Assembly: GCF_004153455.1 (NCBI RefSeq)
Contig: NZ_SDQE01000001.1
Coordinates: forward strand, 372,001-436,000
Direction of reading: 5' to 3'
DNA: 64,000 nt
Source of the DNA: Allopusillimonas ginsengisoli
Lineage (GTDB): Bacteria; Pseudomonadota; Gammaproteobacteria; Burkholderiales; Burkholderiaceae_B
The stretch's first letter is position 1. Every line of letters begins with the position of its first letter. A program made the position numbers and the translations under genes. Below the pieces are notes generated by a model. The model saw only the letters and a program-made list of their open reading frames with translations, had not been told where the DNA came from and searched no databases. Of the stretch, positions 50,620-61,141 are shown piece by piece.

Positions 50620-52116
50620 TCAATGCTTAGACTTGGCACGGCTCTTCAGGCGTAACCGGCGGCAGCCGACCACGACCCCCGTAATGCTCAGCATGAGTCC
50701 CCCGGCGCTCAGACACAGCAGTACCGCATCCCAAAGCGGCCGCCGGTTCAGCAAAGGCAACCAGTCCCAGCTATGCAGCATCTGGAACAGCCACCGGCGC
50801 AGACGGCCATGACGATCTGTATGTCCCAGAATCTCTGCCGTAGCTGCGTCCACATGCACCCAAGTCTTTTGATCATCGCCGAACTGAGCCCGAATGACAG
50901 GCAGCGGCCGATTATGCCCGCCCGTCATGGTGTGCGGTGCGCGGTCATAGTAGTAGAAGTCGTATTGCTGCAGCACCTCTGTACGCAACAGCGGCGCATC
51001 AAACAGACCGGCGGCGGCGCGAGCGATCTCAGCCTGTTCGAAACGGACCTCCTCGCCATTGAGGGCATCGGCCATGCGCGTGTACCCGGCGGCGTTGCGA
51101 ATCATGACCACACTACGGCCGAGCCTTGTGCTCCAGCGCAATTCGCGTACGTTCGTTGCATCGCTCAAAAACAGTGCCGGGGCAGCGGTCAGCCGCTGCA
51201 CAGAAAGCGGCGGCCCGTGCATTGCGGCGACGTTCGGAGCAGGCCCGGTCGAGCGCAGAAATCCCCACGGCACCATGGACATGAGTCCACTGAACAGCCA
51301 CATCAACGTGATGGCTGCGAACAGCAAGCCGAACTTGTGATGCCAGCGCATCATTCGGCCAGGATAAGGCGAGCGCGACCCGCTGCGGTAGGGCCGCGCA
51401 AAGCGCCATCGCAATAGCCCAACGATCGCGCCGGTGATAGTCAACGCCAGACCTCCTATCGACAGCCAGTTCACGATGTTGGCCCATTGGTGATCCAGGA
51501 AAGTGCCGCGAAAGGGATACAGCCAGTGTATCCAGGCACCCACATAGTTCCAGCCTCGTTCCTGCTGCGACGCATCCCGAACTACCTCCCCGGTTGTACT
51601 GGAGATGTACAGTCTCGTCCCTGCGGCGTCGTCAAGCATAATGCGATGCAAGGGCCGGTGACGGTCAAGCGCGCGCGAATGCGTGAAGGCATCCTCATCG
51701 ACAACGCCCTCATCGCTCAGCTCGATCTGTGAACCCGCATAGGCCTGCGCGCTGCGCAGCGCGATTACGTTGCTCGTGCTGGCGATGCGTTCGCCGCGCT
51801 GCGCGTCGACCACGACCCGGCTGCCGTCCGCGAAGACAGCCTGATAGACGGGCGCACCCGCGCGTGCCGCGCTTAGCGTCAGTTCACGCAATGACCCGTC
51901 CATGCCTATGCGACTCAACGCCTGGGCGGGGCTGAGCAGTGACGCTGTCGAGGAAAGTGACGGCAACCGCTCAAGCCGTTCCTGGTCTGTAAGCTTTGGG
52001 TAGCCGACATACATCATCACGACACCCGAGAGGAACCACATCGCCAGGAAAATACAAAGCACAATCCCCGTCCAGCGATGCGTCAGGTAAAGCCAACGTT
52101 TGCCATTGAACGCCAT
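50620..52116 (-). CDS. PepSY-associated transmembrane protein
   Basis: A 498-residue inner-membrane protein with four main membrane segments (about 10-35, 200-225, 258-282 and 455-480) and PepSY domains in the large periplasmic loops. The family includes FoxB/PiuB-like proteins that help strip or reduce metal from complexes brought in by TonB receptors. The N-terminal RWLYLTHRWTGIVLCIFLAMWFLSGVVMMY is typical, with His residues that may bind heme. It is last gene of the propeller-HiPIP-receptor operon, 10 bases after the receptor gene. Confidence 0.88.
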   Translation of the reverse strand: MAFNGKRWLYLTHRWTGIVLCIFLAMWFLSGVVMMYVGYPKLTDQERLERLPSLSSTASLLSPAQALSRIGMDGSLRELTLSAARAGAPVYQAVFADGSRVVVDAQRGERIASTSNVIALRSAQAYAGSQIELSDEGVVDEDAFTHSRALDRHRPLHRIMLDDAAGTRLYISSTTGEVVRDASQQERGWNYVGAWIHWLYPFRGTFLDHQWANIVNWLSIGGLALTITGAIVGLLRWRFARPYRSGSRSPYPGRMMRWHHKFGLLFAAITLMWLFSGLMSMVPWGFLRSTGPAPNVAAMHGPPLSVQRLTAAPALFLSDATNVRELRWSTRLGRSVVMIRNAAGYTRMADALNGEEVRFEQAEIARAAAGLFDAPLLRTEVLQQYDFYYYDRAPHTMTGGHNRPLPVIRAQFGDDQKTWVHVDAATAEILGHTDRHGRLRRWLFQMLHSWDWLPLLNRRPLWDAVLLCLSAGGLMLSITGVVVGCRRLRLKSRAKSKH

Positions 52117-52126
52117 TATCAGGTAC

Positions 52127-54310
52127 TCAGAATTGAATTTGCAGCGCCAGATCTACCGTTCTGGGCGCCCCCAGATACGCCTGCCCCGTATTGATGTTGG
52201 CGGCGTACACCTTGTCGGTGAGGTTGCGCACGCGTCCGACCAGGCGCAAGCGCGGATCGATCTGCCAGGCCAGCGCCAGATCCACCAGGGTATAGCTGGG
52301 CCAGTAAACTGTGTTGGCCGCGTCGGCAAACACCCGCCCCACATGGCGCAGGCCGACGCTACCCTGCACCTCTGGCGTAAAGGCGTACGACGCCCAAAGA
52401 TTGCCCACGACCGAAGGCGTGTTGGACGGAGTTTTGCCTGCCAGGGATACGCCTCCCTGAACAAAGTCGTCGTACTGCGCGTCAACATAGGATAGGTTGC
52501 CTTGCAAGGAGAACCATGGCGTGGGCTGTAGGCCGATGCCCAGCGCTACGCCACGCGATGACTGCTCACCCACCTGCACGGTCAGGGCACTATTGTTTGG
52601 ATCTTGCGTGGCAATATTTTTGCGCTTGATGTGATAGAACGCCAGGGTCGCATTACCCTTGCCTTCCCAGAAATCCAGCTTGGCACCGATCTCCGCCTGG
52701 CTGCCGGACGTGAGCTCGCTGTTGTTGCGCACATCAGAGAAGTTTGCCGTGGACAGGATGCCCGACGGAGGATCGGCCGCGGTCGCGTATTGCACATAGG
52801 CGTTCAAGTCGGGCGTTACGTTCCACAACAGTGCAACGCGACCCGTAGTGGGAGCGTAGTCGCGCCGATACGAGGCGGGGTTGGCGGTGGTCACCTCGCG
52901 GCGATTGGTCAGGTCCAGGCGAATCCGCTCGTGCCGCAAGGCCGTCACCAACTGCACATCAGGAACAAGAAATGTGCGATTTTCCAGATACAGCGCTGTC
53001 GTAGTGACCTTGTTGTCGCGATCCGGCTGATAGCCCCGTGTCATGCCAGGGATATCATAAAAATACTCCGTATCGAAATCATAAGGATCGACCGTGCTTA
53101 TTTCCGAAGACAGGCTGGTCGGAAACCGTGTTTGCTTGTTGATACTGAAGTCGGCGCCAAAGGACCAATCGCTGCGCCGGCCCAAGAACGACCCGCTGTA
53201 CTGGCCTTCAATGCGATTGCCGTACAAGCGCTGATCATGTCGCTGCAATAGTGCGTCAGACCGTATCACCGCGGAGTTGTCTTGAGTGTATCGGTAGGTT
53301 TCAACGTTGCGATAATCGCGTCGCGCATTGTAAAGATAGAAGGTGTTGCTGAGCTGCAGCGCATCAGATGCCTGCCATTCAGTAATGGAGCGCAGCCAAT
53401 GTACGCGCTGACCGTAGTAGCCGTCTTCGCTGTTGTAATTCTTGAATCGAACGCCATCGTCGATGCGTGCGCGCCCCGCAACAGGGTTGAGCAGCGGCGT
53501 ACCCCAATAGGGGCGTTTCACATCCTCTTGCTGATATTCATAGGCAAGTGTGTGGCGCACGCCGCCACCCAGATCGGAGAGCAGTGAGGTGGCCAGCTGT
53601 GTGGCGCGTGAATCGGTGCCATCCACCCAGCTGTCCGCATCGCGATGATTCACATCGATCCGAAAATAATGATTGTTGCCACCCGTTCCGTCGCCCCATA
53701 CGTGACGGTTCAAGCCCACCGACGCTTCGCGCAAGCCATAGCTGCCCAGGCGCAACCGCCCCTCGGTGAAATCGCCGCGTTCCGCAAGCTTGGTCACGTA
53801 ATTGATGGTGCCACCTACGGCACCCGCGCCAAACAGAAAGCTGGACGGTCCGCCAATGGCTTCGACCCGATCATAGATCCAGCTATCGACCGGCCGCGCT
53901 GCGATGGAGTACTGAACATTGATGCCGTTGAACAACTGACTGATGGAGCCGCCAGCAAAGCCACGATAGCTTACGCCAACGCTGCCCGGCGCGTCGTGTG
54001 CTGTCACACCGGGAATCGAGCGCAATATCTCCTGGGTATTCTGGGCGCCGCGCTCTTCAATGGTGCTGCGGTCGATGACCGTCACCGTGGCCGGTGTCTC
54101 GCGTGCGCTCAAGCCGAGGCGGCTGCCCGTGGCAATGGGTGTATCGAGATCAATAAGCCCGTCCGCAGTCAGCGGCGCGCGCCCGGTCACCACTGTAGGC
54201 GCGAGCTCGCTCACAGCGTCCTCTTGTGCGCCCGCCGGGGCGTGGAAGGTCGCCGCGGCCACCACGCAGACGGCGCCGCAGAACACCTCTGTTCTGGAAC
54301 TTGCTTTCAT
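52127..54310 (-). CDS. TonB-dependent outer-membrane receptor
   Basis: About 727 residues. The signal peptide ends HAPAGAQ (about 29), followed by a plug domain (about 60-185; RETPATVTVIDRSTIEERG, TQEILRSIPGVTAHD, GGTINYVTK) and a 22-strand barrel ending in the aromatic LALQIQF. ATG 54310 has AGGA upstream; the longer frame has no ribosome site. The ligand is not evident; the copper-type operator upstream suggests copper or a metallophore rather than iron. It is third gene of the operon, between HiPIP and PepSY genes. Confidence 0.9.
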   Translation of the reverse strand: MKASSRTEVFCGAVCVVAAATFHAPAGAQEDAVSELAPTVVTGRAPLTADGLIDLDTPIATGSRLGLSARETPATVTVIDRSTIEERGAQNTQEILRSIPGVTAHDAPGSVGVSYRGFAGGSISQLFNGINVQYSIAARPVDSWIYDRVEAIGGPSSFLFGAGAVGGTINYVTKLAERGDFTEGRLRLGSYGLREASVGLNRHVWGDGTGGNNHYFRIDVNHRDADSWVDGTDSRATQLATSLLSDLGGGVRHTLAYEYQQEDVKRPYWGTPLLNPVAGRARIDDGVRFKNYNSEDGYYGQRVHWLRSITEWQASDALQLSNTFYLYNARRDYRNVETYRYTQDNSAVIRSDALLQRHDQRLYGNRIEGQYSGSFLGRRSDWSFGADFSINKQTRFPTSLSSEISTVDPYDFDTEYFYDIPGMTRGYQPDRDNKVTTTALYLENRTFLVPDVQLVTALRHERIRLDLTNRREVTTANPASYRRDYAPTTGRVALLWNVTPDLNAYVQYATAADPPSGILSTANFSDVRNNSELTSGSQAEIGAKLDFWEGKGNATLAFYHIKRKNIATQDPNNSALTVQVGEQSSRGVALGIGLQPTPWFSLQGNLSYVDAQYDDFVQGGVSLAGKTPSNTPSVVGNLWASYAFTPEVQGSVGLRHVGRVFADAANTVYWPSYTLVDLALAWQIDPRLRLVGRVRNLTDKVYAANINTGQAYLGAPRTVDLALQIQF

Positions 54311-54369
54311 ATGCAATCCTGTTGTCATTGTTTTGCCTGAAGCGCCTGGCACACGCTGCAATCTGCCTA

Positions 54370-54681
54370 TCAGCCATTCCCCGCATACGCCAGGCACCAG
54401 CCTTTGGGACTGATATCGCCTGCCACCACCGTACAGCCACCCGCCGCATCGGCAGATTTTCCTGGAATGAAATTCGCGCAATTGGCGCAATCGGACTTTC
54501 CCTTGGGATGATCCTGGTATTGCACCGCCGATTTGCTGGCCTTGCCGGCTGCATCGTTTGCTTGCGCACGCGCCGACGCGGACCAGTACAGCAGCGGTAG
54601 CGCGGCTGTGGCGCCGGCGAGACCTGCTATCTTTTGCAGCGCTTTACGGCGGGCAGTCAAAGAAAAAGTTGTGTTCGTCAT
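54370..54681 (-). CDS. high-potential iron-sulfur protein (HiPIP), Tat-exported
   Basis: A 103-residue protein with a Tat-like signal (TARRKALQKIAGLAG). The mature part has the four cluster cysteines in HiPIP spacing: Cys65-x2-Cys68, Cys83 and Cys96 (CANCANF, GGCTVVAG, KGWCLAYA). It is a periplasmic one-electron carrier. Co-transcription with a TonB receptor and PepSY protein is unusual and suggests it gives electrons to, or takes them from, a metal-complex redox step. Confidence 0.93.
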   Translation of the reverse strand: MTNTTFSLTARRKALQKIAGLAGATAALPLLYWSASARAQANDAAGKASKSAVQYQDHPKGKSDCANCANFIPGKSADAAGGCTVVAGDISPKGWCLAYAGNG

Positions 54682-54772
54682 GGAGAGATCCTCATGTCGT
54701 CAATAAGAAGGCTTGATAGCAGCAGGGCGAGAGCCCTGCCCGTTTGGGATTCCAGGAAAGCGGCGCAGCGTC

Positions 54773-55777
54773 TTAGTCGTTGCCTTGCACAGCGAGCCAG
54801 AAAGGCAGCTTGCCTTGCGTTGGCACCTGTTTGACGACGTCCAGCGTGGTGGCGTCGATCACGGCGATCTTGTCCGTACCGGTCACGCCAACGTATATCC
54901 AGCGCCCGTCGCGGCTTGCGCGAACGCCATGCGGTCCCTGGCCTACATCGATCCGCTTGACCACCTTGAGCGTGGCAGGATCGATCACATCCACGACGTG
55001 GTCGGCAATTGCCCCAGTCACCACATAACGACCACCGGGTATGACATCGATGCCGCCATGACTCAGGCCAACGGGAATCACCGCGAGCACTTCACGCGTC
55101 TTGATGTCGACCGCCGCCACCTTGCCCACAAGGTCGCGCACCCACATTGTGCTTTCGTCGGCGGAAAGATCCAGATTGTGAGGGCCCTTGATGCCCGGCA
55201 CATCGATCTCATCAATCTTTTTCATTGCTGTCATATCCACGACTGCAACGCCTGTGCCGCCCTGCAGCGTGACATAGACGAGCTTGCTGTCGGCAGTGAA
55301 GCGTACATTGTGCGGCACCTTGCCGACAGCGATGGACTTGACCTTTTTCTGCGTATGTATATCGATGACAGCCACCGTGCCGGCGCCTGCGCTCACGGCC
55401 AGTCCCCAGCGGCCATCAGGGCTGAAGCCTACGCCTTGCGGCGTCTCTCCGACATTGAACGTGGCGAGTTTCTTTCCGCTGCTGACATCCAGCAGGTAGG
55501 CTTCCGGCAAATCCTTGGCGCTGACCAGCATACGCTGGCCATCAGGGCTGATGGCGTCGTAGTGAGCGCCAGGATATTCACCCCAGGTCTGGCCCGCCTG
55601 CACGTTTTCAACTGCGTTGCCCGTCTGCAGTGTCGCGTATACCGGTTCCGGAAATAAATCCTTCGACTCGGCCGCGTTGACACTGGCTACGCCCAGGCCC
55701 ATGGCAAGCGCACTGACGAGACAGGTCAGTGTGAAACGCAAATGATGTGTTGTCGGCGAGTGATCGCTCAAGGTCAT
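54773..55777 (-). CDS. YncE-like YVTN beta-propeller periplasmic protein
   Basis: A 334-residue protein with a signal peptide ending ASVNA (about 35). It is followed by about seven propeller blades with repeats of the type VAVIDIHTQKKVKSIAVGKVPHNV, VVDMTAMKKIDEIDVPG and AVIDATTLDVVKQVP. The biochemical role of YncE-like proteins is poorly known. ATG 55777 follows AGGAG; the longer frame reads through the promoter. It is first gene of the leftward operon, about 115 bases from its predicted promoter. Confidence 0.88.
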   Translation of the reverse strand: MTLSDHSPTTHHLRFTLTCLVSALAMGLGVASVNAAESKDLFPEPVYATLQTGNAVENVQAGQTWGEYPGAHYDAISPDGQRMLVSAKDLPEAYLLDVSSGKKLATFNVGETPQGVGFSPDGRWGLAVSAGAGTVAVIDIHTQKKVKSIAVGKVPHNVRFTADSKLVYVTLQGGTGVAVVDMTAMKKIDEIDVPGIKGPHNLDLSADESTMWVRDLVGKVAAVDIKTREVLAVIPVGLSHGGIDVIPGGRYVVTGAIADHVVDVIDPATLKVVKRIDVGQGPHGVRASRDGRWIYVGVTGTDKIAVIDATTLDVVKQVPTQGKLPFWLAVQGND

Positions 55778-55898
55778 ATCAACTCCTGTAAGAAGGTGGA
55801 AATTGAATGCCCAAGGCTTCTTTGATGTGCTGTAGGGATAAGCTGATTGACTGCGGTCAGCACAAAGCCATCGAATGGGCAAGCTTGATCCTGCCGTC

Positions 55899-55952
55899 AT
55901 CCTAGGGGTTGAACGCTGTCATCGACATGGCATTGCGGTGACAAATTTGTCA
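55899..55952 (-). promoter_or_regulatory. leftward promoter with a copper-response (CusR/CopR) box
   Basis: TGACAAATTTGTCA (55939-55952) is a perfect 14-bp palindrome and matches the known TGACAA-N2-TTGTCA box of CusR/CopR/PcoR response regulators. On the minus strand, a TAGGAT -10 (55904-55899) lies 34 bases downstream, which puts the box centre near -53, the usual activating position. It should drive the propeller-HiPIP-receptor-PepSY operon. Confidence 0.7.
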
Positions 55953-55975
55953 TGCAACTTGAGCCGCTCGATGAC

Positions 55976-56039
55976 GACAAATACATGTCTTATTTGTCAC
56001 GCTGGCGTCATCGGACAGTAACCGCGTGATCGCTAGAGT
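55976..56039 (+). promoter_or_regulatory. rightward promoter with a second, variant metal-response box
   Basis: GACAAATA (55976-55983) and TATTTGTC (55991-55998) are perfect 8-bp inverted halves, related to the first box but with a 7-base centre. TAGAGT (56034-56039) is a likely -10, 35 bases further right. The mirror-image spacing to the leftward promoter suggests one regulator drives both sides. The rest of the 55778-56120 gap holds no gene. Confidence 0.55.
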
Positions 56040-56120
56040 GGAGTCCTGGCCAGATCGTCTGGCCCTGATATCACGCAGCACTACTGCACTGCGTGACAAC
56101 TATTTTCATAGGAATCTCTC

Positions 56121-56453
56121 ATGTCTGTACGTTTCAAAATGCTTATCGCCACTTTCGCACTTGCGGCAACCGCCCCCGTCACGAGTTTTGCCTATTGGGT
56201 CCCCGACAATACCGAACAAGGCGGCACCGAGGTATACGACTGGTCCAATATGAAGAGCCGCACCCAGGTCCTTCAAGAGCTTGAAGAAGCCAAGGCAGAT
56301 CCAACGTGGGAGTCGCGCCAGGGTGAAGCGACGGGTTCTTGGCCACAGGACCAGGCTGCCTCAACGAAAACACGGGCGCAGGTCAGACAAGAACTGGCAT
56401 CAATGACGGATGAAGAGAAAGCCTACATAGAAAGCTTTTACACCGGCGCCTGA
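56121..56453 (+). CDS. small exported DUF4148-type protein
   Basis: A 110-residue protein with a Sec signal peptide (LIATFALAATAPVTSFA). The mature part contains two copies of the DUF4148 motif, SRTQVLQELEEAKADPTW and KTRAQVRQELASMTDEEKA. Function unknown; such proteins are frequent in Burkholderiales. AGGAA precedes the ATG. It is expressed divergently from the metal-linked operon, from a promoter with a metal-response-like box, so it may be a stress or metal-related periplasmic protein. Confidence 0.8.
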   Translation: MSVRFKMLIATFALAATAPVTSFAYWVPDNTEQGGTEVYDWSNMKSRTQVLQELEEAKADPTWESRQGEATGSWPQDQAASTKTRAQVRQELASMTDEEKAYIESFYTGA

Positions 56454-56500
56454 TACCCACTGTTCAACAGGCCAGCAAGCATCCCGGTCGCAAGCGATAA

Positions 56501-57406
56501 CTAATCGCCCAGCATTGCCCAGATCCGTTCCACGGCTTCTGGATAGCGCGACCGGGAACTGCGATACAAGCCCAGTTGCAGCGTCAGCGGTTTCAGGACG
56601 TCGCCCACGGGTTCAAGCATAAGCAGCGCGCCTGACCTTAACTCCCGCTGGACGAGACTTTCCGGCAGCCACGCCATGCCTAGTCCAGCAAGCAGCATCT
56701 CCTTTACACCCGCCAGAAAAACCGACTCATGAACGATCTCCACGTTGCAGTGCTGAAGCAATGTGATGAAGCCATGCTCGTACATGATGCGGCCCAGGAA
56801 GCTGTCCGGTGGAAAGGCCAGCAGGTTCAATGGCCTATCTTCGTCAGGCACATGCAATGGGCGGCCATGCTCGTCGGGCGCGCTCAAAGGAATCAGCTTC
56901 TCACACCCGAGCGCCAGGCGTGAGGTTTCCGGCACCAACTTGTACAAGGGATCGTTCTCCTCTTCCATGCACAACAGCATATCGACATCCCCGCGCAGGA
57001 AAAGCGCCACACACTCATCCCGGTTTTCGGAACGCACGCTGAAGTTCACGCTGCGATTCAGGCCCCGCATCAAACGCTCAAGCAGACAGGGAAGCCGCGA
57101 CATCGTCAGCGAATGCTGTGTTGCGAATACAATGCGCGCCGAACCGCTATGCTCAGATTGCATACGGCTGCGCAACTGGCTCATATCGCGCAAAAGAACC
57201 CGGAAGGCAGGCACATGCCGCTGCGCCACCGTGGTCAGGCGCAACGGCTGGGTGCGTCGGTCCACAAGTTCAACGTCCAACCACCTTTCCAGCATTTGTA
57301 TACGGCGAGAAAACGCTGGCTGCGTTACATGCCGCAACGCGGCAGCACTTGAAAACGAACCCGTTTCCACCAACGCCAGAAAATCCTCTATCCATAGCTG
57401 CTTCAT
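56501..57406 (-). CDS. LysR-family regulator of the cysteate/cysteine-type cluster
   Basis: A 301-residue protein with an N-terminal HTH (LVETGSFSSAAALRHVTQPAFSRRIQMLE) and a C-terminal effector domain. ATG 57406 follows GAGGAG; the longer frame adds 18 unsupported residues. It is divergent from the PLP lyase across 111 bp that contain a 15-bp motif also found upstream of the last gene of the window, so it probably controls both transcripts. Confidence 0.9.
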   Translation of the reverse strand: MKQLWIEDFLALVETGSFSSAAALRHVTQPAFSRRIQMLERWLDVELVDRRTQPLRLTTVAQRHVPAFRVLLRDMSQLRSRMQSEHSGSARIVFATQHSLTMSRLPCLLERLMRGLNRSVNFSVRSENRDECVALFLRGDVDMLLCMEEENDPLYKLVPETSRLALGCEKLIPLSAPDEHGRPLHVPDEDRPLNLLAFPPDSFLGRIMYEHGFITLLQHCNVEIVHESVFLAGVKEMLLAGLGMAWLPESLVQRELRSGALLMLEPVGDVLKPLTLQLGLYRSSRSRYPEAVERIWAMLGD

Positions 57407-57446
57407 GCCGCCGCTCCTCACGATATGCAAAAACGACATATTGCGC

Positions 57447-57489
57447 CAAAAACATAGCATTGGGCAAACGATTTCTCTATTTATAAGAT
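57447..57489 (+). promoter_or_regulatory. promoter of the PLP-lyase/ABC operon with shared motif copy 1
   Basis: CAAAAACATAGCATT (57447-57461) is flanked by TTGCGCC and GGGCAAA, an imperfect inverted pair, and abuts a promoter TTGGGC (57461-57466) - 17 bp - TAAGAT (57484-57489). The 15-mer is identical to 63591-63605. It is a probable LysR site. Confidence 0.6.
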
Positions 57490-57517
57490 GGGGAACATTT
57501 ACAAACAGGAGTCAACC

Positions 57518-58543
57518 ATGCTTCAACTTGCCGCGTACCCTCGCGTACGTTTGGGCCATTTCCCAACCCCCCTGGAATTCATGCCGAATCTGACGCGGCA
57601 CCTTGACGGCCCGAACCTGTACATTAAGCGTGATGATTGCACGGGGCTGGCCACAGGCGGAAACAAGACACGCAAGCTTGAATTTCTGGTGGCGCAGGCC
57701 ATTGCAGAAGGCGCAGATACCCTGATTACCCAGGGCGCGGTGCAGTCGAATCACGCACGGCAAACAGTCGCCGCTGCCGCCCGAATGGGCATGAAATGCA
57801 AGATTCTGCTTGAGGAGCGCGTTCCCAACGCAACAGACGACTATGCGCACTCCGGCAACGTGATGCTTGACGGGCTCATGGGCGGTGAAATCGCTGCTCG
57901 CCTGCCGGCCGGCACCAATATGCAGCAGGCCGCGGAAGCACTGGCAGCGGAACTACGCCAGGCTGGCCACAAGCCTTACGTGATTCCCGGCGGCGGCTCG
58001 ACGGCGGTGGGCGCGCTCGGCTACGTCGCCTGCGCGCAGGAATTGCTTACCCAATCATTTGAAAGCGGCGTACGCATAGACCATGTGGTGCACGCCACCG
58101 GCAGCACGGGTACGCAAGCCGGTTTGGTGGTGGGCCTGCGCGCAAGCAACAGTGGCATTCCTGTCTACGGCGTCAGCGTGCGCGCGCCGCGTCAGAAGCA
58201 GGAAGAGAATGTCTGGAATCTGGTTCAGGCTACGGTGGATTACATGGGCCTGCCCGTGTCGTCGATCGATCGCGCAGACATCGTCGCAAATTCGGATTAC
58301 GTTGGCGAAGGCTATGGCATCCCAACAGATGGCATGATCGAAGCAGTACGCCTTACCGCTGAGCTCGAGGGTATTCTGCTGGACCCTGTCTATTCGGGCA
58401 AGGGTATGGCTGGGCTGATCGACCTGATCCGCTCGGGGCACTACAAGAAAGGCGAAAACGTGGTGTTCATTCATACCGGCGGCGCGGTTGGCCTGTTCGG
58501 GTATCGGACAGCATTTGCCAACAGCGGATCCAACGCTGCATAA
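57518..58543 (+). CDS. PLP-dependent L-cysteate sulfo-lyase / D-cysteine desulfhydrase family enzyme
   Basis: A fold-type II PLP enzyme of 341 residues. Lys50 in [11 protein letters not shown] binds PLP and QSNHARQ holds the substrate carboxylate; the middle [12 protein letters not shown] and the end [18 protein letters not shown] and [13 protein letters not shown] are shared by CuyA and DcyD. ACC deaminase is related but fits less well. CuyA turns cysteate into pyruvate, ammonia and sulfite; DcyD releases sulfide from D-cysteine. ATG 57518 follows AGGAG at 6 bases. It heads an operon with an acidic-amino-acid-type ABC importer and an Asp/Glu-racemase-family protein, which favours cysteate, an aspartate analogue. 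Confidence 0.8.
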
Positions 58544-58642
58544 ACATTCGACTGTCAGGGCCACGCGCTCGCGCCGCCCTCTCACCAAGCAGAATCCCTT
58601 TACCTGGGTGACACAGCGTTCGTCACCCGGAGGAGACACACA

Positions 58643-59539
58643 ATGAAAATCTGGAAAATTCTACTGTTGGCAACCACTATTGCCGCAATGGGCACCGCCT
58701 ATGGACAAGGGCGACTGGAAAAAATCAAATCGACTGGAGAGATTACGATTGGCCATCGGGATGCATCCATCCCCTTCTCGTACCTGGATGATCAGCAAAC
58801 ACCCGTAGGCTACTCGATGGACATTTGCGCCAAGGTCGTGGATGACGTCAAGCAGAAGCTTGGCCTGGACACGCTTAACGTCAAGCTCGTGCCCGTGACC
58901 TCCTCCACGCGCATCCCGCTGGTTGCCAATGGCACCGTTGACCTGGTCTGCGGATCGGCCACCAATACGGTGGAGCGTCAGAAGCAGGTGAGCTTTGCGC
59001 CAACGACATTTGTCACCGCAACCCGATACGCCGCGAAGAAGTCGTCGAACATCAACAGCCTGGACGATCTGAATGGAAAAACGGTAGTCTCCACTGCCGG
59101 TACCAGCAACATCAGGTGGTTGACTGCCGTCAATGAAAGCGAGGGCAGGAAAATGCGCATCATTCCGACCAAAGACCATCCCGCCGCCATGCTGACCGTA
59201 GCCAACGGCCGCGCCGTGGCGTTTTTCATGGACGACATTCTTCTGGCCAGTCTGGTTGCCACCGAACGACAACCCGACGAATGGATGATCAGCCAGGACA
59301 CCTATACCGTGGAACCCTACGCCATCATGGAACCAAAGAATGATCCCGAGTTCAAGAAAGTGGTGGATGATTCGATAGCCGCCATGATGAAAGACGGGAC
59401 GCTGGCCACGCTGTACAAGAAATGGTTCGAAATGCCTATCCCGCCTAAGAACGTCAACCTTAACTTGCCGATGAGCGAAGCACTCGCCCGGGCAGTCGCC
59501 AACCCCACCGATTCGCCCGACCCAGCGGACTATCAGTAA
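58643..59539 (+). CDS. amino-acid ABC transporter binding protein (Glu/Asp type, family 3)
   Basis: A 298-residue receptor with a signal peptide ending GTAYGQ (about 22). RLEKIKSTGEITIGHRDASIPFSYLDD opens the fold; LVCGSATNTVERQKQVSFA and FFMDDILLASLVA are typical of GltI-like proteins. GGAGGAGA-like spacing precedes the ATG. It belongs with the two permeases and ATPase downstream. The ligand is probably an acidic amino acid or its sulfonate analogue. Confidence 0.9.
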   Translation: MKIWKILLLATTIAAMGTAYGQGRLEKIKSTGEITIGHRDASIPFSYLDDQQTPVGYSMDICAKVVDDVKQKLGLDTLNVKLVPVTSSTRIPLVANGTVDLVCGSATNTVERQKQVSFAPTTFVTATRYAAKKSSNINSLDDLNGKTVVSTAGTSNIRWLTAVNESEGRKMRIIPTKDHPAAMLTVANGRAVAFFMDDILLASLVATERQPDEWMISQDTYTVEPYAIMEPKNDPEFKKVVDDSIAAMMKDGTLATLYKKWFEMPIPPKNVNLNLPMSEALARAVANPTDSPDPADYQ

Positions 59540-59611
59540 CTGGCGCGGCATACCTCTATCACGCTTGACCGGCAGCTCATCGCCTTGATGGGGATGCCGG
59601 TTCACCGCACG

Positions 59612-59663
59612 ATGACGTAGCGCCGGCCTGGCACCCAGGGTGCGCAAGCCGGTGCTACGTCAT
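59612..59663 (+). terminator. large intercistronic hairpin between binding protein and permease genes
   Basis: ATGACGTAGC (59612-59621) pairs perfectly with GCTACGTCAT (59654-59663). The stem continues through a G-T wobble into CCGGC/GCCGG, and a second stem GCACC/GGTGC (59631-59643) tops it. There is no T-run. It ends 12 bases before the permease start, overlapping the approach to its ribosome site. It likely protects the receptor mRNA 3' end or damps permease translation. Confidence 0.75.
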
Positions 59664-59675
59664 CTGGAGACAACA

Positions 59676-60455
59676 ATGAATTACAACTGGAACTGGCCCA
59701 TATTCTTTGAACTGGCGCCAACCGGTGGAACCTACTTACAGGCGCTGCTCTCAGGCTTGGCGTGGACCATTGCCACAGCGGCACTGTCGTGGATGCTGGC
59801 ACTGGCGATGGGCGTGATGGTCGGCGTTGCCAGAACCACTCGCGTGAAATGGGCCCGCATTGTCGGCACCGCATATGTCGAGCTGTTTCGCAACATTCCG
59901 CTGCTCGTTCAGATGTTTCTATGGTATTTCGTTGTACCGGAAATACTGCCAACGGCATTGGGCGACGCGATCAAACAAATCGCCCCACCCTGGGGAATTT
60001 TTGTACCGGCAGTGTTGTGCCTGGGCTTTTATACCTCGTCGCGCGTGGCCGAACAGGTTCGCGCAGGAATCGAATCCCTGCCGCGCGGTCAATCCATGGC
60101 CGCAACCGCCTTAGGCATGAAACCGCATCAGGTTTATCGATATGTGCTGTTGCCCACGTCGTTTCGCATCATTCTGCCTCCGCTGATTTCCGAGCTCCTG
60201 AACCTCATCAAGAACACCTCGGTGGCCTTCACCATAGGCCTGCTTGAACTGGTGGGTGCGGCGCGCTCCATGCAGGAGTTCAGCTTTCAGGTATTTGAAG
60301 CGTTCACGGCCGCCACGCTGTTTTATCTGCTGCTCAATCTGGTCGTATTGCGAGGCATGTTGCTCATCGAGGCGCGTATCGCCGTGCCTGGCTTCATCGG
60401 ATCCTCCCTCGCCGCCAAGAAGACCGGCGCACTCAAAGAGGTAGTGACAACATGA
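59676..60455 (+). CDS. amino-acid ABC transporter permease (GltJ-like)
   Basis: A 259-residue inner-membrane permease of the His/Glu/Gln family, with five or six spans. The EAA loop is visible as EQVRAGIESLPRGQSMAATALGMKPHQVYRYVLLP near 128-162. ATG 59676 follows GGAGA. It overlaps the second permease gene by 4 bases. It forms a heterodimer with it. Confidence 0.92.
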   Translation: MNYNWNWPIFFELAPTGGTYLQALLSGLAWTIATAALSWMLALAMGVMVGVARTTRVKWARIVGTAYVELFRNIPLLVQMFLWYFVVPEILPTALGDAIKQIAPPWGIFVPAVLCLGFYTSSRVAEQVRAGIESLPRGQSMAATALGMKPHQVYRYVLLPTSFRIILPPLISELLNLIKNTSVAFTIGLLELVGAARSMQEFSFQVFEAFTAATLFYLLLNLVVLRGMLLIEARIAVPGFIGSSLAAKKTGALKEVVTT

Positions 60456-61141
60456 ATAGCTTTGACTTTGATGTCATCGAACGCTCGTTGGGGTATCTGT
60501 TTCGCGATGGCATGGTTTTCACGCTGAAGCTGACCATTCTGTCGACAACAATGGGGCTCACTCTGGGCACGCTGCTGGCCATGTGCCGTTTATCCGGCAT
60601 CAAGCCGCTGGCGTCGGCCGCCGGCGCCTACGTGAATTTTCTGCGCGCCCTGCCGCTTATCCTCGTCATCTTCTGGTTCTATTTTCTGGTTCCCTACATT
60701 GGCGGGTGGCTCACCGGCCAAGGCAGGCCATTGAATGTGGGTGGCTTCACGTCAGCACTAATCACCTTCACGCTGTTTGAGGCTGCCTATTTTTGCGAGA
60801 TCATGCGTGCAGGCATTCAATCGATCCCTCGCGGGCAAGTGGCGGCCGGTTATGCGCTGGGACTGAACTATTGGCAAATGATGGCCAATGTTGTGCTGCC
60901 GCAGGCCTTGCGCAATATGGCACCCATACTGCTGACACAGACCATTGTTCTGTTCCAGGATACGTCGCTGGTCTATGTATTGTCACTGACCGACTTCCTC
61001 GGCGCCGGCATCAATGTGGCCCAGCGAGACAACCGATTGGTCGAGATGTATATCTTCGTGGCGGCCGTCTATTTCGTCATGAGCTATGCCGCCTCCCAGC
61101 TGGTCAAGTATCTCCAGCGCCGCAACACCATGGCGGCGTAG
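60452..61141 (+). CDS. amino-acid ABC transporter permease (GltK-like)
   Basis: A 229-residue second permease. The EAA loop is CEIMRAGIQSIPRGQVAAGYALGLNYWQMMANVVLPQALR near 115-155. Its start overlaps the previous gene (ATGA), and a 28-base gap leads to the ATPase. Confidence 0.92.
   Translation: MNSFDFDVIERSLGYLFRDGMVFTLKLTILSTTMGLTLGTLLAMCRLSGIKPLASAAGAYVNFLRALPLILVIFWFYFLVPYIGGWLTGQGRPLNVGGFTSALITFTLFEAAYFCEIMRAGIQSIPRGQVAAGYALGLNYWQMMANVVLPQALRNMAPILLTQTIVLFQDTSLVYVLSLTDFLGAGINVAQRDNRLVEMYIFVAAVYFVMSYAASQLVKYLQRRNTMAA

Follow-up and report, generated by a model that had tools for sequence, protein, structure and literature searches.

A CusR/HprR-class divergent promoter in Allopusillimonas ginsengisoli as a candidate part of an HprRS/MsrPQ-like regulon that includes a crtA-crpH copper-uptake pair

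Which regulator, and which signal, would act on the divergent promoter between a beta-propeller gene and a DUF4148 gene of Allopusillimonas ginsengisoli? Both genes lie in a stretch of 64,000 nucleotides (contig NZ_SDQE01000001.1, positions 372,001 to 436,000), hereafter the window, in which a first-pass annotation had assigned the two directions to copper-type response boxes under a metal-responsive two-component regulator. The reading preferred here is that of two divergent promoters of the CusR/HprR class, both dependent on an activator and probably run by an HprRS-like system encoded elsewhere in the genome on contig C1. It builds on the site, its conservation and geometry, the gene content, the regulator neighbourhood and the sensor residues. 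The features concerned are as follows.

50620..52116, minus strand: PepSY_TM protein (domain match), CrpH-like by its position behind crtA
52127..54310, minus strand: TonB-dependent receptor, predicted CrtA-type copper importer (PDB 9RVQ/9RVX); start at ATG 54310 or 54328
54370..54681, minus strand: HiPIP-family protein, Iro-like, a profile match below the NCBIfam cut-off
54773..55780, minus strand: secreted beta-propeller (Cytochrom_D1/YNCE-like; signal peptide by eye), first gene of the presumed operon
55899..55954, minus strand: whole 56-base operator-promoter module of the propeller operon (own-genome model E 6e-12, the site being part of the model; matrix score 52.9)
55899..55905, minus strand: -10-like element of the propeller promoter, CTAGGAT, separated from TGTCA by 33 bases (gap of 33 in four of four loci)
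55927..55932, minus strand: second half-site, TGCCAT, which follows the TGTCA half 11 bases downstream; propeller and DUF305 promoters retain it in slightly varied form
55939..55952, no strand: palindromic operator TGACAAATTTGTCA of the CusR/HprR class (exact match; palindrome count), with a similar one upstream of the propeller gene in loci L037, L038 and L039
55984..56039, plus strand: weaker DUF4148 module with half-sites CATGTC, TTTGTCA and CGTCA and the element CTAGAGT; same layout at six of six close orthologue promoters in the genus
56121..56453, plus strand: DUF4148 protein, small and probably secreted (signal peptide by eye)
56501..57460, minus strand: LysR-family regulator beside the DUF4148 gene, 69% identical to the LysR of relative G013, whose gene stands between those for the kinase and DUF4148

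The exact CusR/CopR box claimed for this promoter is borne out by the letters, since TGACAAATTTGTCA lies without mismatch at 55939-55952 and TGACAANNTTGTCA occurs once in the window against 0.01 copies expected from dinucleotide shuffles (one of 100 shuffles had a copy). As in operators of the CusR/HprR class, which carry TGACAANNTTGTCA or TTACAANNTTGTAA upstream of a promoter, the palindrome here stands upstream of a promoter. Two copies of TGACAANNTTGTCA are found in the whole genome, the window site and one within a coding region that we take to be frr; the latter was treated as chance rather than as an operator, since it lies inside a coding region. A chance palindrome as the origin of the window box was ruled out by the shuffles, by the conservation confined to the module and by the matrix score. 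The box as such is confirmed, and it looks like a conserved landing site for a CusR/HprR-type regulator encoded elsewhere in the genome. The related halves said to lie beside it fared less evenly: the plus-strand element CATGTCTTATTTGTCA exists at 55984-55999, with its last 14 bases three mismatches from the box, but by letters alone it is at chance level and not significant, the window having three matches at up to three mismatches and 26 of 100 shuffles having at least three.

The mirror-image arrangement of the two sides, with a -10 element annotated 34-35 bases from each box, turned out to be tighter than described. The gap between the end of TGTCA and CTA(G/A) is exactly 33 bases on either side and is the same in three relatives, the -10-like elements being CTAGGAT at 55905-55899 on the minus side and CTAGAGT at 56033-56039 on the plus side. 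A second half-site follows 11 bases past TGTCA on both sides, as TGCCA leftward and CGTCA rightward. A generic sigma-70 scan found no promoter in the divergent region, a result consistent with an activator-dependent promoter whose -35 is poor, though no proof of one.

Conservation was assessed by a propeller search at E <= 1e-60 in 250 genomes of the family, which matched five genomes, the source genome included. The G027 match is partial and contains a stop, leaving three intact relatives, G013, G052 and G173, whose sequences align gap-free between the palindrome and the -10. Across the module, 15-base blocks have a mean pairwise identity of 0.53-0.80, versus 0.19-0.34 on the flanks, and this footprint limited to the module is the strongest single piece of evidence that the site is probably a working one. 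The box is thereby kept in all three intact close-propeller genomes of the 250 sampled, so that a loss of the box in relatives that keep the genes, named in the first-pass annotation as a refuting outcome, is not seen in them; HiPIP and the regulator pair are also near the propeller gene in all three. In the G027 locus (L040, 7232-8115), the propeller gene is split into overlapping pieces with an internal stop, and the assembly is fragmented.

A box common to all propeller relatives was ruled out, as none of 13 distant propeller loci had a model match at E <= 1 (12 loci plus one of Marinobacter; some are short, and L036 is a gene piece only), which counts against the preferred reading. In the three distant loci checked with Pfam, a sigma-70-family (ECF-type) gene lies near the propeller gene (L025 7277-7795, L026 11551-12120 and L029 7270-7788, from Rhodanobacteraceae and Modicisalibacter), and by eye some propellers have an inverted element resembling GGGAATAAA upstream; the propeller may have a different regulator there. 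In the Marinobacter salarius plasmid pSMR5 (L019), a 50% identical propeller adjoins merTPA and is followed downstream by genes for a sigma factor, a zf-HC2 protein, a 'sulfite oxidase', a cytochrome c, CcdA and a P-type ATPase, and the propeller accompanies metal and periplasmic redox genes there too.

The regulator was correctly placed outside the window, where all 16 Trans_reg_C matches of the genome are found. In G052 and G173, the module is followed by the propeller and HiPIP genes, with those for a response regulator and a kinase immediately after them, and the G013 cluster runs propeller-HiPIP, YncE-DUF305 (on the opposite strand), regulator, kinase, LysR and DUF4148. The orthologous regulator of the source genome lies on contig C1 and shares 91, 81 and 78% identity with those of G013, G052 and G173, respectively. 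The C1 pair adjoins DUF305-YncE and msrQ-msrP, and the DUF305 and msrP promoters both carry the module. The window cluster thus looks like part of an ancestral cluster still joined in G013, msrPQ excepted, and the likely regulator of the box is the C1 response regulator, not CopR.

Profile models place this pair in the heavy-metal class. The regulators and kinases of G013, G173 and G052 score above the cut-offs of the heavy-metal models (TIGR01387/TIGR01386), and the C1 pair is orthologous to them and has the corresponding Pfam domains. The narrower NCBIfam cut-offs were missed by the regulators of the three orthologous pairs, for the HprR equivalog with 288-294 bits (cut-off 353) and for the copper/silver regulator with 290-296 bits (cut-off 420). 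The C1 regulator is 58.6% identical to E. coli CusR versus 55.3% to HprR; this slight difference and the missed cut-offs count against an HprRS-like assignment. msrPQ genes that adjoin the pair and bear the box are found in the source genome and G102; those of G173 lie near the pair yet have no model match, which counts against the preferred reading, and in the inspected stretches of G013, G052, G071, G095 and G033 msrPQ was not seen. hiuH had no match in the 17.5 kb around the C1 pair. In G173, a sigma-70-family gene and a Pfam-less gene lie between the kinase and msrPQ (L038, 11940-15097), and both regulator kinds occur in this one cluster.

The kinase bears on the signal. The C1 kinase aligns with HprS over its full length (33% over 456), whereas it aligns with CusS in the second half only. 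Among eight such kinases, Met72, Met153 and Cys165, the sensor residues of HprS, are kept in eight, four and none, respectively, and the counts for the last two speak against the preferred reading. DUF305 proteins have been linked to copper, and a copper oxidase and a DUF411-like gene lie upstream of the propeller in G173; both points speak against an oxidant alone as the signal. The Cu(I)/Ag(I) residues of CusS, named as H42, F43 and H176 in the available part of PMC10100754, are absent from all eight kinases and all present in the genome's own CopS. For HprS, PMC10151825, as far as its text was available, speaks of two methionines and one cysteine without giving numbers, and cites El Hajj 2022 for the sensing of reactive chlorine by the two methionines. 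According to the accessible portions of the respective papers, E. coli msrP is induced by HOCl via HprSR and by copper via CusSR (PMC9302797), and HprR and CusR have the same recognition sequence with different affinity (PMC8249747). By these residues and alignments, the C1 sensor is more like the HprS of E. coli than its CusS, and an oxidant, with or without copper, appears at least as likely a signal as copper alone and is ranked ahead of it here. The metal-responsive regulator proposed for both sides thus stands as to its CusR/CopR/HprR class and the shared geometry, but a metal-only reading is too narrow, because the C1 sensor is without the CusS metal residues and has the HprS Met72. The label "copper-type" was half right and is partly supported, in that the locus would belong to an HprRS/MsrPQ-like envelope-stress regulon overlapping copper.

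The range of the module was examined with a sequence-only model (R1) made from eight sites. In the source genome, it recovered the propeller, DUF305, msrP and DUF4148 sites at E 6e-12 to 1.8e-7, scores that hold by construction as all four are in the model. New matches were the promoter of a DUF4148 paralogue (C1:146143, E 1e-4; protein 69% identical), that of copR (1.2e-4) and a site lying between copR and the copper oxidase gene (0.24); two more overlap known palindromes, and a further one (0.56) has no known gene of the set beside it. In the family, 28 of 250 genomes matched at E <= 0.001. Among the 48 matches listed, 13 without a locus were left out of inspection; of the 24 loci L059-L082, four lie beside a C1-type pair, 18 beside CopR and/or a copper oxidase, as the suggested search for box copies near copper genes had anticipated, and the remaining two beside a DUF411 or DUF326 gene only. 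Matches outside the training set adjoin a C1-type pair in G071, G095, G102 and G033 and include the msrP promoter of G102. The model picks up the cusC promoter of E. coli as well (L043 3513-3553, E 5.6e-4), but it has no match in the E. coli hprRS-hiuH-msrPQ stretch, which counts against the preferred reading.

A matrix built on nine sites taken from other genomes, five of which had been found via R1 with its source-genome sites so that independence is incomplete, scored 58.6 for the DUF305, 52.9 for the propeller, 31.8 for the msrP and 31.1 for the copR site, 24.1 for the copper-oxidase side, 17.4 for the DUF4148 paralogue, 13.2 for E. coli cusC and 9.9 for the window DUF4148 site. The best score in 40 Markov-simulated windows, used as the null in place of shuffles, was 10.0 and the mean 2.6. 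With 52.9 on the minus and 9.9 on the plus strand, the two sides of the promoter are unequal in strength.

In the preferred reading, within which we infer binding, activation, signal and co-transcription, the periplasmic sensor of the C1 system would most likely respond to the oxidation of methionines during reactive chlorine or oxygen stress, and perhaps also to copper. The phosphorylated C1 regulator would bind the palindrome and the half-site 11 bases on, and recruit RNA polymerase to the CTAG-type -10 located 33 bases after the palindrome. Leftward, this would yield the periplasmic beta-propeller and HiPIP and, by presumed read-through, the CrtA-CrpH-type copper-uptake pair; rightward, the weaker site would drive the DUF4148 protein and may be shared with CopR.

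The main competitor is the canonical CopRS system on C22, whose neighbours are copper oxidase, CopB, cupredoxin-like, DUF411 and DUF326 genes. If it were the main regulator, both sides would answer periplasmic copper, as originally proposed for the locus. CopR is 70% identical to CusR, CopS keeps H42/F43/H176, and the CusSR-dependent copper induction of E. coli msrP and the recognition sequence shared by HprR and CusR at different affinity (PMC9302797 and PMC8249747, in the parts available) likewise speak for it, as does G080, a genome without a C1-type regulator at the threshold used, in which one of two DUF4148 boxes has the CopR-typical TGTAA half. The letters of the right half stand on the other side. 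In a tally of 35 loci, from which six duplicates were dropped and in which three were classed as 'other', TGTCA is found at 12 of 12 distinct sites grouped with the C1 regulator (11 of 11 when the DUF4148 site of the window is set aside, its assignment being by proximity, with the propeller on the same locus), whereas the CopR/copper-oxidase sites carry TGTAA in 12 of 14 cases and TGTCA in two of 14 (Fisher p 1e-5, which for related sequences is no true probability). Moreover, among the 250 family genomes, propeller-HiPIP lies near a C1-type pair, not CopRS, in all three intact relatives. In E. coli, the letters are reversed, with TGACAA-TTGTCA at cusC and TTACAA-TTGTAA at hiuH; the box agrees with cusC and not with hiuH, which counts against an HprRS-like reading, and letters alone therefore cannot name the signal. 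On balance, CopRS as the main regulator is considered unlikely.

Far less probable still is that the box serves the neighbouring LysR regulator (56501-57460) or is a non-functional palindrome. LysR proteins bind imperfect palindromes, the LysR gene adjoins DUF4148, and the LysR of G013 is placed likewise; yet the DUF305 and msrP promoters bear the same 56-base module with no LysR gene recognised beside them in the ORF list, and the conservation limited to the module makes chance very unlikely.

The leftward genes bring a copper importer under this promoter, at least by position. The receptor matches PDB 9RVQ/9RVX, the CrtA of Bordetella pertussis, with 890 bits against 129 for the next best, and all six CrtA ligand-site residues named in the available part of PMC12914433 (Y130, W265, E337, Q356, H358 and R395, counted along the 9RVQ alignment) are present. 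The receptor is, as judged by this homology, a CrtA-type copper importer, which the first-pass annotation had not foreseen. The HiPIP stop and the receptor start are 59 bases apart (ATG 54310) or 41 (ATG 54328), the receptor and PepSY_TM genes 10 bases; a scan of 52000-54900 gave no sigma-70-like promoter, and a single weak terminator-like hairpin falls within the HiPIP gene, with shuffles averaging 1.5 and 2.1. Co-transcription of propeller-HiPIP-crtA-crpH is presumed from the spacing. Between the propeller and HiPIP genes, a GC-rich hairpin without a T-run (GGGCAGGGC-TCTC-GCCCTGC, 54715-54745) was seen by eye and is possibly an mRNA-stability element.

At E <= 1e-100, the receptor is found in 47 of the 250 family genomes, the source genome included, and in none of the four other genomes of the genus. 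In the best 19 of the 47, the source genome aside, the PepSY gene lies directly behind the receptor in every case, and a CruR-like ORF stands ahead of it in all 19 (the weakest at E 6.9e-10 and 3.5e-6; the profile was built from four of the 19, and four were confirmed as DUF2946). In B. pertussis, crtA-crpH is located behind cruR and shut down by copper, according to the accessible part of PMC9426467; PMC12914433, likewise available in part, reports cruR as first gene in >40% of crtA operons and PepSY_TM after >75% of crtA genes. The window crtA is without a CruR (DUF2946) leader, with no profile match on the minus strand of 54281-57000, and the only DUF2946 match of the genome lies on C30. 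Conversely, a box common to the crtA-crpH relatives was ruled out: a search at E <= 0.5 that covered some 1.5 kb to either side of the receptor gave no match in any of the 19. Because the leader is absent here, the box is absent in the 19 relatives and the receptor is absent in the genus-mates at the threshold given, crtA-crpH seems to be an addition of this lineage, placed behind propeller-HiPIP and under different control. A tentative extension, possible rather than probable, is that crtA-crpH moved from copper-repressed CruR control into an HprRS/MsrPQ-type regulon, in which envelope oxidation and not copper shortage would induce uptake together with the propeller-HiPIP redox pair.

On the rightward side, the genome has five DUF4148 genes (nine matches), of which the window copy and that at 146 kb of C1 are close and both carry the module, and the other three have no model match at E <= 10. 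Six close copies exist in three of five genomes of the genus, and all six promoters match the model at E 0.001 or better over the 20 kb searched, and share an equally spaced TTGT(C/A)A and TA(A/G)AGT -10; in five of them the second half-site ends in GTCA, and in the sixth it is TGACA. Taken alone, the window DUF4148 site is weak, its matrix score being at the noise level of the simulated windows. Of the two copies in G080, one has TTGTAA, and the other, with TTGTCA, adjoins copper-oxidase genes; this, and the presence of the orthologues in a genome where the threshold used detects no C1-type regulator, counts against the preferred reading. Given these copies, the TTGTAA half and the copper-oxidase neighbours, the DUF4148 side may answer to CopR as well. 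Further on (57488-61141), a gene for the D-cysteate sulfo-lyase CuyA (above cut-off) is followed by genes that by eye are ABC-transporter-like, a cysteate-use island beside the copper/redox genes.

Among known systems, the putative regulon is similar to E. coli HprSR-MsrPQ (yedVW-hiuH-msrPQ) in the pair beside msrPQ, the whole-length kinase similarity, Met72 and the box class, but it seems to add DUF305-YncE, propeller-HiPIP and crtA-crpH, and it differs in having no hiuH match, cusC-type letters and no Cys165. With E. coli CusSR-cusCFBA it shares the palindrome class, the TGTCA half-site repeat at 11 bases and the -10 offset of cusC; unlike CusSR, the sensor is without the CusS metal residues, no cus genes were found under the sites, and the nearest CusR is CopR. 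The B. pertussis cruR-crtA-crpH operon likewise has PepSY_TM after crtA and the kept ligand-site residues (PMC12914433, PMC13038864 and PMC9426467, as far as available), whereas the pair here has no CruR leader and sits behind propeller-HiPIP and a CusR/HprR-class box. The CopRS-copper oxidase operons of the family have the same box layout with a second half-site, but mostly a TTGTAA right half (12 of 14) in place of TTGTCA. In titles and abstract openings of the open-licence literature, no description was found of a DUF305/MsrP/YncE/HprR module or a HiPIP-YncE-copper-TonB combination. The class of system is known; what appears new is the set of members brought together in the regulon and a crtA-crpH pair with a replaced leader.

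With this locus, a branch of the heavy-metal-type two-component systems that has been little studied gains a regulon open to testing, in a genome holding two sister systems whose operator letters, TTGTCA and TTGTAA, may separate them. It also suggests an envelope-stress role for some DUF4148 and DUF305 proteins. A paradox arises from crtA-crpH, as uptake genes that are copper-repressed via CruR in B. pertussis are placed here behind a box of a class that is induced by copper or oxidants in E. coli. At stake is whether oxidised cells would restock copper, for example for heme-copper oxidases, or whether the sensor reads something else.
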